The position numbers and the translations under genes were made by a program. Positions 28,291 through 47,555 of a DNA stretch of 64,000 nucleotides are shown here, piece after piece (position 1 is the stretch's first letter; each line of letters starts with the position of its first letter). Source of the DNA: Holophagae bacterium (GTDB lineage Bacteria; Acidobacteriota; Holophagae; Acanthopleuribacterales; Acanthopleuribacteraceae); contig JAJCXM010000019.1 of the NCBI GenBank assembly GCA_029263455.1, forward strand, positions 62,001-126,000, given 5' to 3'. Below the pieces are notes generated by a model that was given only the letters and a program-made list of their open reading frames with translations, had not been told where the DNA came from and did no database searches.

Positions 28291-29166
28291 TTAATTCAAC
28301 TCTTTTTCAAACCAGTGGTGGGCGTAGGGTTCCGAATTAAACGCTTTAACTTCCCTGTATCCACTCTTTACGTAGAGCGATCGCGCCGCAAGCAAAGCCT
28401 TATTCGTTTCAAGCCGAAGCAGCCTAAGTTCACGGTCTAAAGCCAACTCTTCAAGCTCTTCCAGAAGACACTTACCGATTCCTAAGCCTCGAGATTGAGG
28501 GGCAACCCACATACGTTTGATCTCCGCAAAGGACGTGCTACATTTTAAAGCGCCACAGCCAACAACATCACCGTAAAGCTTAGCGACCACAAAATAGCCG
28601 GCTGGCGGGGTGAGTTCTTCTACCGTCGCTGAGATACTCTTGCTGGGCTCAAATTCAGCCTCGAACAACGAACTTAACTCGTCGAAATAGTGTTGTAGGC
28701 ATTGCGCAGCTAACTCGCTACCAGGGTCCTCAATATGAAATGTCACACAGCCAGCGCGCAATAGACGCTCAACTGTTTCCATGGCTTGAATCAACTCATC
28801 GCGTTGCGCACAATTTAATCGTTCCAAAAGACCCGCGGCAGCGTTATCGGATAGTTGGTTTAGTAGCGCCAATTCCTCTCTGCCGGCCTTCGTCAAAGCC
28901 AAACGGCTAACTCGTCCATCATCTGGTGAGCGCGAGCTACCAATCAATCCCTGCTTTTTTAACGTGCCGATTAAGCGACTCACATAGCCTGAATCCAAAT
29001 TCAGACGATCACGCAATTGACGTATCTCTATACCGCCCAACCCAATTTCAAACAACAAACGACTCGCACCCAATGAGCGATTTCGGCCCAAGAAATGTCG
29101 ATCCAATAGACCGATCCTGTGAGTTACCGTGCGATTAAATTGGCGAATGCACTCAATTCTATTCAT
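28291..29166 (-). CDS. MarR-type regulator fused to a GNAT acetyltransferase
   Basis: ATG 29166 is chosen because it follows a consensus promoter by seven bases; the longer frame would run through that promoter. Residues 1-150 are a MarR winged helix (ASRLLFEIGLGGIEIRQLRDRL, YVSRLIGTLKKQGLIGSSRSPDDGRVSRLALT, with the Asp-x-Arg wing). Residues about 150-291 are a GNAT domain, with the acetyl-CoA loop near VAPQSRGLGIGKCLLEELEELA (QSRGLGIG) and LYVKSGYREV at the end. This two-domain form is known in many bacteria; the acetyl acceptor is not known. It sits ahead of the CPBP gene with a 22-bp gap. A 16-bp palindrome overlaps its own -10 box. Confidence 0.92.
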   Translation of the reverse strand: MNRIECIRQFNRTVTHRIGLLDRHFLGRNRSLGASRLLFEIGLGGIEIRQLRDRLNLDSGYVSRLIGTLKKQGLIGSSRSPDDGRVSRLALTKAGREELALLNQLSDNAAAGLLERLNCAQRDELIQAMETVERLLRAGCVTFHIEDPGSELAAQCLQHYFDELSSLFEAEFEPSKSISATVEELTPPAGYFVVAKLYGDVVGCGALKCSTSFAEIKRMWVAPQSRGLGIGKCLLEELEELALDRELRLLRLETNKALLAARSLYVKSGYREVKAFNSEPYAHHWFEKELN

Positions 29167-44044: not shown

Positions 44045-44479
44045 CTAGACCCCAACCAAAAAGGATGACGTTGCCAGTTGATCGAGGATGCGAGACCAGC
44101 CTTGATTGTGGTTATCACGCATCATCTCATTGAGGAAATGCTGGTGGTGCAAGATCACATGGGTCCGTTTCTTCCCCTTTTCTGCGAAGCTGAGGTTCAC
44201 CACACTGCCTTCAGCCGTGAAAGGTGAATTCCATGTGAATGAAATCGCGTGTGGTCGGTCGATCTTTTGATAAGTGCCGTGATGGGCAATCTTTTCTTCA
44301 CCTACCTGCATAATGATTTCGAAGGCACCACCAATCCGAGGATCCATTGTCACAACCGGATTGGGCATGCCTTCAGCTGGCAGCATAAATTGGCTTAGTT
44401 TATGAACGTCAAGCCAGGCGTCAAAGACTTCTTCTACAGGACCTTCTATGGTTTTGTTAACTGTAAGTTCAAGATTCAT
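44045..44479 (-). CDS. SRPBCC/AHSA1 family protein
   Basis: 144 residues of the START-like AHSA1 fold: TVNKTIEGPVEEVFDAWLD at the N terminus, GGAFEIIMQVGEEKIAHHGTY and SFAEKGKKRTHVILHHQHF in the core, and the C-terminal helix NHNQGWSRILDQLA. These proteins bind hydrophobic ligands. Its ATG overlaps the stop of the ArsR gene (ATGA arrangement), so the two are translationally coupled. This ArsR-SRPBCC pairing is widespread. The ligand and the signal are unknown. Confidence 0.9.
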   Translation of the reverse strand: MNLELTVNKTIEGPVEEVFDAWLDVHKLSQFMLPAEGMPNPVVTMDPRIGGAFEIIMQVGEEKIAHHGTYQKIDRPHAISFTWNSPFTAEGSVVNLSFAEKGKKRTHVILHHQHFLNEMMRDNHNQGWSRILDQLATSSFLVGV

Positions 44480-44829
44480 GAGGATGACCCTTCCGAATGT
44501 TTAGTTTGGTCAAATATCTGTTCAAGCTGATCGAGCCGTTGTTGCCACAGGTTCTGACTGCGCTTAAGCCAATCCTGAATAATTAGATGGAATGTGGGCT
44601 TTAGCGCAATCAGGTGTTCGCGCCCCGTGACTTGGCGTTTAACGATATCGGCCTTCTCCAAAACCTTAATGTGTTTGGACACGGCATTGAGTGACATGTC
44701 AAATTGGGCAGCAAGATCAGTAACCCGGGTGACACCTTGTTGGCCAAGCAGCGTCACTATCCTAAGGCGACCAGGATCCCCAAGCGCCTTAAACACGACA
44801 ATCAAAGCTTGATCTTCATATTCAACCAT
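44476..44829 (-). CDS. ArsR/SmtB family transcriptional regulator
   Basis: ATG 44829 is chosen because it lies seven bases after a -10 box and inside a 24-bp palindrome; the longer frame would cross the promoter. 117 residues with the winged helix FKALGDPGRLRIVTLLGQQ, DLAAQFDMSLNAVSKHIKVLEKADIV and RQVTGREHLIAL. There are no metal-binding cysteines of the ArsR or CadC kind, so a metal signal is unlikely. It heads a coupled pair with the SRPBCC gene and very probably represses itself. Confidence 0.93.
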   Translation of the reverse strand: MVEYEDQALIVVFKALGDPGRLRIVTLLGQQGVTRVTDLAAQFDMSLNAVSKHIKVLEKADIVKRQVTGREHLIALKPTFHLIIQDWLKRSQNLWQQRLDQLEQIFDQTKHSEGSSS

Positions 44830-44841
44830 GTGGTTGAATAT
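44818..44841. promoter_or_regulatory. 24-bp palindrome over the ArsR start codon
   Basis: On the + strand ATATTCAACC-ATGT-GGTTGAATAT: perfect ten-base arms around four bases. It covers the ATG (complement of 44827-44829) and most of the -10 box, so the bound regulator would cover the transcription start. The TTCAACC/GGTTGAA half-sites resemble known ArsR family operators. Confidence 0.8.
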
Positions 44842-44865
44842 AGTGATAATGCCGAACAAAGTCAA
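44837..44865 (-). promoter_or_regulatory. sigma-70 promoter of the ArsR-SRPBCC pair, probably leaderless
   Basis: Minus strand TTGACT (44865-44860), a 17-base spacer, and TATATT (44842-44837), then seven bases (CAACCAC) and the ATG. Geometry is identical to that of the MarR-GNAT promoter at 29174-29202. There is no Shine-Dalgarno sequence. Confidence 0.75.
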
Positions 44866-44968
44866 CCAAAACGTTGAATGTCCGCAACTTGCCTGGTCAG
44901 GCACCCTCTAGGCAGATGATTTTCGAGTGCAAATGAGGGTTTGTGTCATCGCTACGCTATGATGGATC

Positions 44969-46438
44969 ATGGAAATGACACCCAGAGTACGCCATCAACT
45001 TGATGAATGGGTGCGAATCTCTACCATCGCCCTGGCAAGTGTCTTGGTTCCCTTGTACTCACTGCTCACGTTTCGTGAACTCAAGCTCTTTTCGGGCACA
45101 GATCTTTCCATAGCCATAGGATTAAACCTACTTTGCGCCTCCTCATTCCTCGTGCTTGGCGTTTTGTTGGTTCATCGAAAGCTGTCAGCACATTGGTCAA
45201 ATTTTGCGGCTTTATTCCTTGGACTCCTGGCACTTACTAAGAACCTATCGCAAATCATGATCACCCAGGATATTTCCTATACAACCATCACGCTCTTGGT
45301 TCCAATCTGCTTGGCTTTCGTTCTACTTGATCGTCGTCTATTCACGGTCGCCATTTGCATCACTTATTTTGCTTGGTGGTTTATCGCCAAAGAGTTAACA
45401 GTCACACCTTGGCTTGCCGTTCCTTATGCGATTCCAGCCGCAGCCATCGCTTACGGAATCCACCTAGCTAACTTCAAGAATCGTCATCTCAGCGCTATGT
45501 TAATGATTAAACTCGCCGAAAGCGAACAGCACTTCCGGCAGTTGGCTGAAACGGTGCGAGAGACATTTTGGGAGGTGGATATTAAAACGAGTCGATTCAT
45601 CTTCGTCAATGCCGCATTTGAGGATCTGACCGGCTACAAACCCGATGACTTGATTCGCGATCCAAATATCTTTTGGTCGATTATTGAATCCGAAGACAAG
45701 GAACGCATCAAGGTCGTCATCAAGGAGGCCACACAAGGAAGCAGTATTCGCATGGAGCACCGCCTACGTCACAAAGACGGAACACTCAAGTGGATAAGTT
45801 TAGACGCCACCGTTCTTTTTGATGAATTTGGGGCGCCGAAGCGAATTGTCGGTCTAAGTTATGACATAACTCAGACTAAGCACTTGCAAACCGAACTAGA
45901 ACGATTGTCCACGATCGATCCTTTGACGAACACCAATAATCGACGTGTTTTTGAACAGGCGTTAGATCGTGAGTGGAAGCGCATGATCCGATTAAAATCA
46001 TCGATATCTTTGATCATGCTTGATGTGGATCACTTCAAAGCCTACAACGACGCCTATGGTCATCCCAAAGGGGACCATTGTCTAAAGTTAGTAGCTGAAC
46101 ACCTAATTACTGTTGTACGACGAGATACGGATGTAGTTGCGCGTTATGGAGGCGAAGAGTTTGTCGTTATCCTGCCTAACACGGACAGAGATCACGCCTT
46201 TCTTTTAGCTGAGAAAATACGCTCAAGTATAGATAATGCCCAAATTGATCACAAAGGATCAAGCAAGGGTAATGTCACCGCAAGTCTTGGTGTTGCAACC
46301 GTTACTTGTCCAACTCAGCTGAGTATCGACTCTTTCATCGAAATGGCCGACCAAGCTCTCTACAAATCGAAGCAGAATGGGCGCAATATGGTTTCTATCG
46401 CAGCGGAAGATACTAGCGAACAATCGTCGTCCAGCTAA
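44969..46438 (+). CDS. membrane-bound PAS-GGDEF diguanylate cyclase
   Basis: 489 residues. About six N-terminal membrane segments (TIALASVLVPLYSLLTF through LAVPYAIPAAAIAYGIHLA) form a MASE-like sensor. A PAS/PAC domain follows (FRQLAETVRETFWEVDI, FVNAAFEDLTGYKPDDLI, MEHRLRHKDGTLKWI). The GGDEF domain starts at DPLTNTNNRRVFEQAL and has the active-site motif GGEEF in RYGGEEFVVILPN, so it should make cyclic di-GMP. An RxxD inhibitory site is not obvious before the motif. It is divergent from the ArsR pair with about 140 bp between starts. The second Met (codon 3) is an equally possible start. Confidence 0.92.
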   Translation: MEMTPRVRHQLDEWVRISTIALASVLVPLYSLLTFRELKLFSGTDLSIAIGLNLLCASSFLVLGVLLVHRKLSAHWSNFAALFLGLLALTKNLSQIMITQDISYTTITLLVPICLAFVLLDRRLFTVAICITYFAWWFIAKELTVTPWLAVPYAIPAAAIAYGIHLANFKNRHLSAMLMIKLAESEQHFRQLAETVRETFWEVDIKTSRFIFVNAAFEDLTGYKPDDLIRDPNIFWSIIESEDKERIKVVIKEATQGSSIRMEHRLRHKDGTLKWISLDATVLFDEFGAPKRIVGLSYDITQTKHLQTELERLSTIDPLTNTNNRRVFEQALDREWKRMIRLKSSISLIMLDVDHFKAYNDAYGHPKGDHCLKLVAEHLITVVRRDTDVVARYGGEEFVVILPNTDRDHAFLLAEKIRSSIDNAQIDHKGSSKGNVTASLGVATVTCPTQLSIDSFIEMADQALYKSKQNGRNMVSIAAEDTSEQSSSS

Positions 46439-46470: not shown

Positions 46471-47397
46471 TTAGGGCTCCTTAACAGATTTAAGTTTCAA
46501 CAAAGCTTCGGACGCCGAGATCAGGCTTGAATCTATTTGCAATGCCCTCTCATAGGCTGCAATCGATTCCACTATTCTCCCCTCTTTAGCCAGAAATTCA
46601 CCGTAGCTGTCAAACCCGTTTGCATAGTCGGGTACCAAAACCGTGAGTAACTTAAGAATGTGCAAACCCTCCCCAGTTCGGTCCAGAGAGCTTAAGTAAT
46701 AAGCTAACCGGTTCAGTGAATTGGCCGCCGTCAAACTGTCATGGGCGACCGCCTTCAAGAAATATGGATGGGCGACACTCATATCTTTTTCGCTAACTAG
46801 CAAATGGGAACCGACATTAAATAAACTGAGCGCGTCGTTTGGGTACATTTCAAGATTGAGTTGGTGCAACTGAAATGCTTCTTCTTGTTTTTGTTGATTG
46901 GCTAAACGTCGCGCCACGTTCGACAGCGTCGCGGCCCGGAAGTCATAACTATCTGATCCATACAGGCTGGCGTGTAAATCGCGATATTCAGCTATGCCGG
47001 CCTCAATCCCCTTGTCGGATATGGTATCCATCATCACGTTAATCAGCGAACGCGGCTGTTTGACGCCATGATGGCAAGTGTCACAAGAAATTGATGACTG
47101 GCGTTCTTTGAAAAAACCATCATTCAGTTCATTCACCATGCGCATCATTTCTCGAGCCGTTTTCTTGGTTTCTTTTTCATCGCTGGCAAAATCGTAATTG
47201 TCCAAGGTCATGACCGATTCGCCGACATGGCAGTGTTTGCAGCCCACGCCTAAAGCACCAGCAATATTGCGCATGGCCCCGACCAGTTGGCGACGTGAAA
47301 TGTCTTTGGGGTATATCTCTAAATTCTCAAACTTATCGGGAATTTGAGCGAATAAACCAATAGCGGCTAGCAAAGCAAAGTAACGTGAGCCAAGCAT
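46471..47397 (-). CDS. diheme c-type cytochrome (reaction-centre cytochrome type) with TPR repeats
   Basis: ATG 47397, with AGGAGG five bases upstream, begins the signal peptide MLGSRYFALLAAIGLFA. Two heme motifs follow: GVGCKHCHVG and SCDTCHHG. The intervening NLEIYPKDISRRQLVGAMRNIAGALGVGC is written here as its key parts PKDISR and MRNIAGALG; this matches the cytochrome c family related to photosynthetic reaction-centre subunits that is common in Acidobacteriota. Residues about 150-308 are TPR-like (QLNLEMYPNDALSLFNVGSHLL, IAAYERALQIDSS). It is a periplasmic electron carrier or sensor with a protein-binding tail. The stop is 32 bp from the convergent GGDEF gene. Confidence 0.87.
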   Translation of the reverse strand: MLGSRYFALLAAIGLFAQIPDKFENLEIYPKDISRRQLVGAMRNIAGALGVGCKHCHVGESVMTLDNYDFASDEKETKKTAREMMRMVNELNDGFFKERQSSISCDTCHHGVKQPRSLINVMMDTISDKGIEAGIAEYRDLHASLYGSDSYDFRAATLSNVARRLANQQKQEEAFQLHQLNLEMYPNDALSLFNVGSHLLVSEKDMSVAHPYFLKAVAHDSLTAANSLNRLAYYLSSLDRTGEGLHILKLLTVLVPDYANGFDSYGEFLAKEGRIVESIAAYERALQIDSSLISASEALLKLKSVKEP

Positions 47398-47555
47398 GAA
47401 TATCCTCCTAGACAACATCTATAACCCTACAACGAAATCTTTACGATTTGAACAGGCCGTCAACTCATTAACCCGTTTCAGGACAAACATGTATGGCATA
47501 ACGCAACCACCCCATAAATCCTATAGCCGCATGAATCAGGCAGATTGAGGCACCA

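Follow-up and report, generated by a model that had tools for sequence, protein, structure and literature searches.

The window analysed here, a 64,000-nt stretch of a Holophagae bacterium genome (contig JAJCXM010000019.1, positions 62,001 to 126,000 of the forward strand), carries an ArsR–AHSA1 gene pair that is probably a leaderless, autorepressed operon, its promoter being built from two predicted operators of its own repressor, O1 and O2 (Table 1).

Predicted promoter and operators of the ArsR gene

On the minus strand, the promoter reads TTGACT, 17 bases, TATATT, the seven bases CAACCAC and ATG, and a direct reading confirms both the coordinates and the spacing given in the original prediction. 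The first codons are ATG GTT GAA TAT. The palindrome reported there across the −10 box and the ATG is also present, but its arms are 11 rather than ten bases long: O2 comprises 24 nt with perfect 11-base arms and a 2-base centre. Its dyad falls exactly between positions −1 and +1 relative to the start codon, i.e. directly before the A, and the first three codons are part of its right half. The second site, O1, was absent from the original prediction. It is imperfect in the window, with 6/8 pairs complementary, and its dyad lies 40 bp upstream of the O2 dyad. Both promoter boxes thus belong to operator half-sites, the −35 box to the right one of O1 and the −10 box to the left one of O2.

In sigma70 promoters, transcription starts about 7 bases past the −10 box, and the predicted +1 of the ArsR gene is therefore the A of its ATG. 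The best match to AGGAGG at this start is 2/6, so that the gene shows what is expected of leaderless genes at the sequence level, a −10 box seven bases before the ATG and no Shine–Dalgarno site.

Table 1. Genes and predicted regulatory elements at the ArsR–AHSA1 locus (window coordinates)
Feature	Position	Strand	Basis or remark
ArsR-family regulator, 117 aa, MVEYEDQALIVV..., no cysteine	44476..44829	-	Pfam and NCBIfam profiles
AHSA1/SRPBCC protein, 144 aa, second operon gene	44045..44479	-	Pfam AHSA1, 82.5 bits (cut-off 22.1)
PAS-GGDEF protein	44969-46438		Divergent to the ArsR gene
O2, predicted ArsR operator, palindrome ATATTCAACCA-CA-TGGTTGAATAT	44818..44841	.	Sequence and conservation in relatives
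O1, second, imperfect predicted operator ATTCAACG-TTTT-GGTTGACT	44860..44879	.	14/16 to the consensus of O2 half-sites
-10 box TATATT	44837..44842	-	7 bases 5' of the ATG, within O2 left half
-35 box TTGACT	44860..44865	-	17 bases from the -10 box, within O1 right half
Start codon ATG, predicted +1 at 44829 (leaderless)	44827..44829	-	Presumed -10 to +1 distance, frame test, annotation of relatives

The ArsR and AHSA1 genes

The ArsR protein exceeds the Pfam cut-offs for HTH_5 (40.0 bits, cut-off 22) and HTH_20 (41.1 bits, cut-off 27) and that of NCBIfam NF033788 (67.5 bits, cut-off 55), and it matches PDB 3f6o with an E value of 3.5e-14. It thus belongs to the ArsR/SmtB family of winged helix-turn-helix proteins. 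None of its 117 residues is a cysteine, and the cysteine metal site of the ArsR/SmtB metal sensors is accordingly missing; the protein is therefore not a thiol metal sensor, while metal sites of other kinds are possible. The SdpR-type autorepressors share its ArsR fold and its predicted autorepression, but with 46.9 bits against a cut-off of 100 it is not a member of that subfamily by the NCBIfam model NF033789. The AHSA1 gene adjoins on the same strand, its ATG overlapping the ArsR stop codon as ATGA (44479-44476), the gene order of an ArsR–AHSA1 (SRPBCC) operon. Elsewhere in the window, the protein at 46471-47418 (−) contains CxxCH motifs and matches CytoC_RC (photosynthetic reaction centre cytochrome, 33.7 bits) and, weakly, TPR.

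Conservation of the layout in relatives

Homologues were collected by genome searches, from the genome's own contigs, from plasmids and by one sequence-pattern search. The searches returned more homologues than were taken as loci, and the comparison uses a subset of 96 ArsR loci; L028, L032 and L033 were left out because the match lies near a contig end. Nine of the genome's own 15 ArsR genes are in this set, the six left out of it being L002, L003, C8:179582, C3:147558, C5:56196 and C36:16355. An in-frame ATG coincides with the dyad of an operator-like site in 35/96 loci, or 26/87 when the nine that came from a pattern demanding an ATG at the dyad (the window's own locus L170, L172-L178 and L182) are excluded. 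A further 13/96 have an operator-like site just upstream of the ATG, and 47/96 show neither arrangement, with own_C22 set aside. Clustering at 65% identity gave 18 clusters with the ATG at the dyad and 8 with the site upstream of the start. L137 and L157 were removed from the former class, as their frame meets a stop, and so was own_C22, in which the promoter comes after that ATG.

The 35 loci with the ATG at the dyad include members of the window's phylum as well as Rhodobacterales, Sinorhizobium, Rhizobium, Azospirillum and Methylophaga. L210, a relative on pSymA of Sinorhizobium meliloti 1021, shows the layout of the window. Of 34 loci in an earlier version of this class, 32 have a downstream AHSA1 gene, as judged by a model that was built by iteration and may have drifted. 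The promoter match is poor in L146 and L148-L152 (5/12 mismatches) and in the Rhodobacterales loci (6-7/12). A search with the pattern TTNAACCNNATGGTTNAA, which makes no use of protein homology, returned 21 sites in 396 genomes of the window's phylum, against 4 for the reversed pattern. Ten of these 21 sites begin an ArsR gene, nine of the ten being preceded by TATATT; two others precede an ArsR gene on the opposite strand, and the remaining nine are unrelated or unclear.

The two arms of the operator covary. Complementary bases were present in 123/144 pairs. Shuffling the right arms 20,000 times gave 107.1 on average and never more than 119; with the selection rule kept in the shuffles, these values were 108.6 and 120. 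The sites had partly been selected as palindromic, and kinship is disregarded by the shuffling. Where the right arm departs from the consensus, the left arm matches the change in 9/20 cases and fails to do so in 11/20. In the 16 clusters whose second residue is Val, it is always encoded by GTT, whereas GTT makes up 20/110 (18%) of the other Val codons of the same genes, a bias that indicates a constraint acting on the DNA. Where the half-site varies, residue 2 or 3 differs with it, being Gly in L134, Gln in L162 and Asn in L153. A TANNNT box stands at distance 7 in 10/18 clusters, at distance 8 in 2 and at any other distance in at most 2. The second site also recurs: a match of at least 12/16 at −43 to −37 was found in 10/26 clusters versus 0/260 control windows, and by this 12/16 rule 16/26 clusters have none.

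The closest same-genus relative found, L010, has the same arms, but its centre is ACGA without an ATG and its start lies 13 bases past the dyad. A start within the operator is thus not obligatory: L010 and the window share the predicted promoter–operator unit but differ in where the start codon falls within it. On a tree of 64 rows, 11 changes of layout are required for 20 rows, and supported branches force at least 3 of them, with 105 columns that resolve little; at this resolution, a single origin of the ATG-in-operator layout was rejected.

Several further loci deserve mention. The exact operator pattern occurs at only two places genome-wide, the window site and a paralogue at C35:107122. 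This paralogue (L185/L197, C35:107079-107139) has both operators, TTTAACCAAATGGTTGAC and TTTAACCATAAGGTTTAA, 43 bp apart, and its ATG lies 10 bases past the second dyad. Also in the genome itself, two ArsR genes 5 kb apart (L044 and L045, at C3:23606 and C3:28639) have a −10 box seven bases before the ATG together with palindromes that differ from O2, i.e. the leaderless geometry without this operator. At C22:316.8 kb (L063, from 1453), a 254-aa frame that starts as an ArsR protein and continues as an AHSA1-like half is probably a natural ArsR–AHSA1 fusion; its promoter is TTGACA-18-TATATT-6-ATG, with the palindrome GCAACCATATGGTTGC between the boxes. Finally, in L169 (1490-1550) an operator-like TTTAACCGTATGGTTAAA precedes a gene that has its own Shine–Dalgarno site and no tblastn match to ArsR, a possible other target in that genome. 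We claim no wider regulon beyond the ArsR operons, one-mismatch operator sites numbering 14 genome-wide versus 30 in the control.

Alternative readings of the start codon and the palindrome

The operon might be autorepressed but not leaderless, with the +1 elsewhere or with the true start at a downstream TTG or GTG and the palindromic ATG a by-product. We consider this unlikely. Were the ATG incidental, it should be in frame in one third of cases; among clusters in which the dyad of a site scoring 12/16 or better carries an ATG, that ATG is in frame and open into ArsR in 16/18, own_C22 counted among the 16 (p = 2e-6). Candidate downstream starts do exist in the window, as TTG and GTG codons lie in frame 24 and 33 bases past the ATG, and 13 of the 96 loci (8 clusters) do carry an operator and start after it. 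However, 6 of these 8 clusters have no member with an ATG at that operator's dyad, and the public annotation of all six annotated relatives with the layout of the window places the start at the dyad ATG. While the operator would produce the GTT bias whether or not the codon is translated, the seven-base distance from the −10 box and the poor AGGAGG match also argue against a conventional start.

A role of the palindrome in RNA, as a hairpin hiding the start or ending the message, is very improbable: a perfect 11-base inverted repeat does sit at the translation start, but with the +1 seven bases past the −10 box the right arm alone would be transcribed, and the site is repeated ~40 bp upstream, outside the transcript, at the window and at other loci. 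An ordinary promoter with a fortuitous palindrome is scarcely credible. In its favour, palindromes alone are not rare (arms of at least 10 bases with a gap up to 8 at four places of the window) and one-mismatch sites are no commoner than controls, but the conservation, the covariation, the codon bias and the O1 spacing in relatives contradict it; what exceeds chance is the position of the putative operator O2 on promoter and ATG, and its conservation.

Predicted leaderless promoters in the genome

According to the original prediction, two regulators of the window share an identical promoter geometry, a hint that leaderless autoregulated regulators are a general habit of the organism. A whole-window scan found sigma70-like boxes 5-8 bases before ORF starts at three sites, two of them with the exact 7-base and 17-base spacing, the ArsR gene and the gene starting at 29166 (−). 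The latter encodes a MarR-GNAT fusion (28291-29166) behind TTGACG-17-TATAGT-7-ATG. The −10-to-ATG distance is thus indeed shared, but the 16-base perfect palindrome of the MarR-GNAT gene, TCTGACTATAGTCAGA, has the −10 box at its centre and stops 3 bases short of the ATG, so that the operator geometry differs.

We then surveyed a gene sample of 784 kb (the window and 36 stretches of 20 kb), in which a simple codon model called 590 genes. A promoter with at most 3/12 mismatches stands 5-8 bases from the ATG in 6/590 genes (~1%), two of which are the regulators of the window. At exactly 7 bases there are 4 promoters, compared with a mean of 0.83 per distance at 15-60, and the sample shows a clear Shine–Dalgarno peak 4-9 bases before the starts. 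The strict pattern TTGAC-N18-TANNNT-N7-ATG occurs 10 times in the whole genome versus 2 times for the reversed control. Four of the ten hits are regulators (three ArsR, one MarR-GNAT), one is doubtful, four begin no gene of 20 codons, and one is presumably an asparagine-synthase-like gene, named from its start MCGIAGI.

By family, the 3-mismatch rule is satisfied by 3/15 ArsR genes (5/15 with 4 mismatches), 1/23 TetR genes and 1/6 MarR genes, the last being 6 of 12 MarR_2 hits, as the other 6 are ArsR genes. Among these families, an enrichment is borne out for ArsR (3/15 vs 4/588, Fisher p = 0.0004), but not for TetR (p = 0.18), with a single case among the MarR genes. A small excess of promoters with this spacing, carried by helix-turn-helix regulators and above all by ArsR, is real. 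A general habit of the organism finds no support, given ~1% of genes against 3/15 for ArsR and the Shine–Dalgarno peak; judging from the sequences, the leaderless geometry is more aptly called a habit of a single ArsR branch that spans phyla. What the sequence does support is a leaderless ArsR gene with a predicted operator over its start codon, whose autoregulation is very probable.

Proposed mechanism

Autorepression is usual among ArsR proteins. From the layout, gene order, conservation and covariation, we infer a cycle in which ArsR dimers would bind O2, with its dyad on the +1, and probably O1, with its dyad at −40. The dimer on O1 would cover the −35 box and that on O2 the −10 box, the +1 and the first three codons; with both promoter boxes and the +1 covered, RNA polymerase would be excluded. 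Once ArsR leaves, transcription would begin at the first base of the start codon, and the AUG at the very 5' end of the message would be translated without a Shine–Dalgarno site, with AHSA1 translated through translational coupling to ArsR. The AHSA1 fold often holds hydrophobic ligands, and the AHSA1 partner may act on the same ligand as ArsR.

A more specific proposal, on which we find the balance even, is that one 60-bp two-operator unit provides the −35 box (O1) and the −10 box, +1 and start codon (O2), the half-site dictating Met-Val-Glu and residues 2 or 3 changing with it. The half-site ATGGTTGAA would itself serve as a leaderless start, so that any coincidence of +1 and dyad could give rise to the layout.

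If the leaderless, autorepressed reading is correct, these operons would form a compact, sequence-recognisable class and a clean setting in which to study the joint evolution of operator, promoter and coding sequence within one set of bases, and to ask whether 5'-terminal AUGs are selected in mostly Shine–Dalgarno organisms. It would also predict the operator of an ArsR group now called metalloregulators by family name, with predicted targets that are mainly the group's own genes and an AHSA1 protein.

Comparison with known systems

A literature search, with most subscription journals outside its coverage, found no published description of the ArsR–AHSA1 layout with the ATG at the operator dyad and no paper on ArsR paired with SRPBCC. 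The principle of a leaderless autorepressor is already known from lambda cI, Tn1721 tetR and acuR. In lambda cI and Tn1721 tetR, the operators lie at the promoter, and to our knowledge the start codon is not at an operator dyad; the proteins are other than ArsR. The regulator mRNAs of lambda cI and Tn1721 tetR are leaderless (cited in PMC3017554). Leaderless genes are widespread in bacteria (PMC3160421), with 171 leaderless starts mapped in S. meliloti 1021, the strain that carries L210 (PMC3616915), and 192 starts exactly at the start codon in B. japonicum (PMC4842269).

Among ArsR proteins, autorepression has been shown for Brucella ArsR6 (PMC8509827) and for Rv2034 of Mycobacterium tuberculosis, which forms an operon with Rv2035 (PMC3338718). 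Rv2034, an ArsR autorepressor unresponsive to the metals tested, resembles the window's predicted autorepressor in its overlapping operon, there with a polyketide_cyc2 gene, and in an operator of 8-base arms and a 4-base spacer; its footprint spans −30 to +3 relative to the start codon (PMC3338718). However, that operator, CCGTAAGT-N4-ACTTACGG, lies beside the start codon rather than being centred on it, and the available part of the paper describes no leaderless start or second operator (PMC3338718). AcuR of Rhodobacter sphaeroides belongs to another regulator family, TetR, and its operator, which lies over the promoter and consists of 8-bp repeats separated by 6 bases, is off-centre to the ATG (PMC3017554). 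It nevertheless compares with the window's ArsR gene in a leaderless mRNA, mapped for acuR and predicted for the window, from the autorepressor's AUG, with −10 and −35 boxes at the standard distance and an operator that overlaps the promoter and is conserved in other bacteria (PMC3017554).
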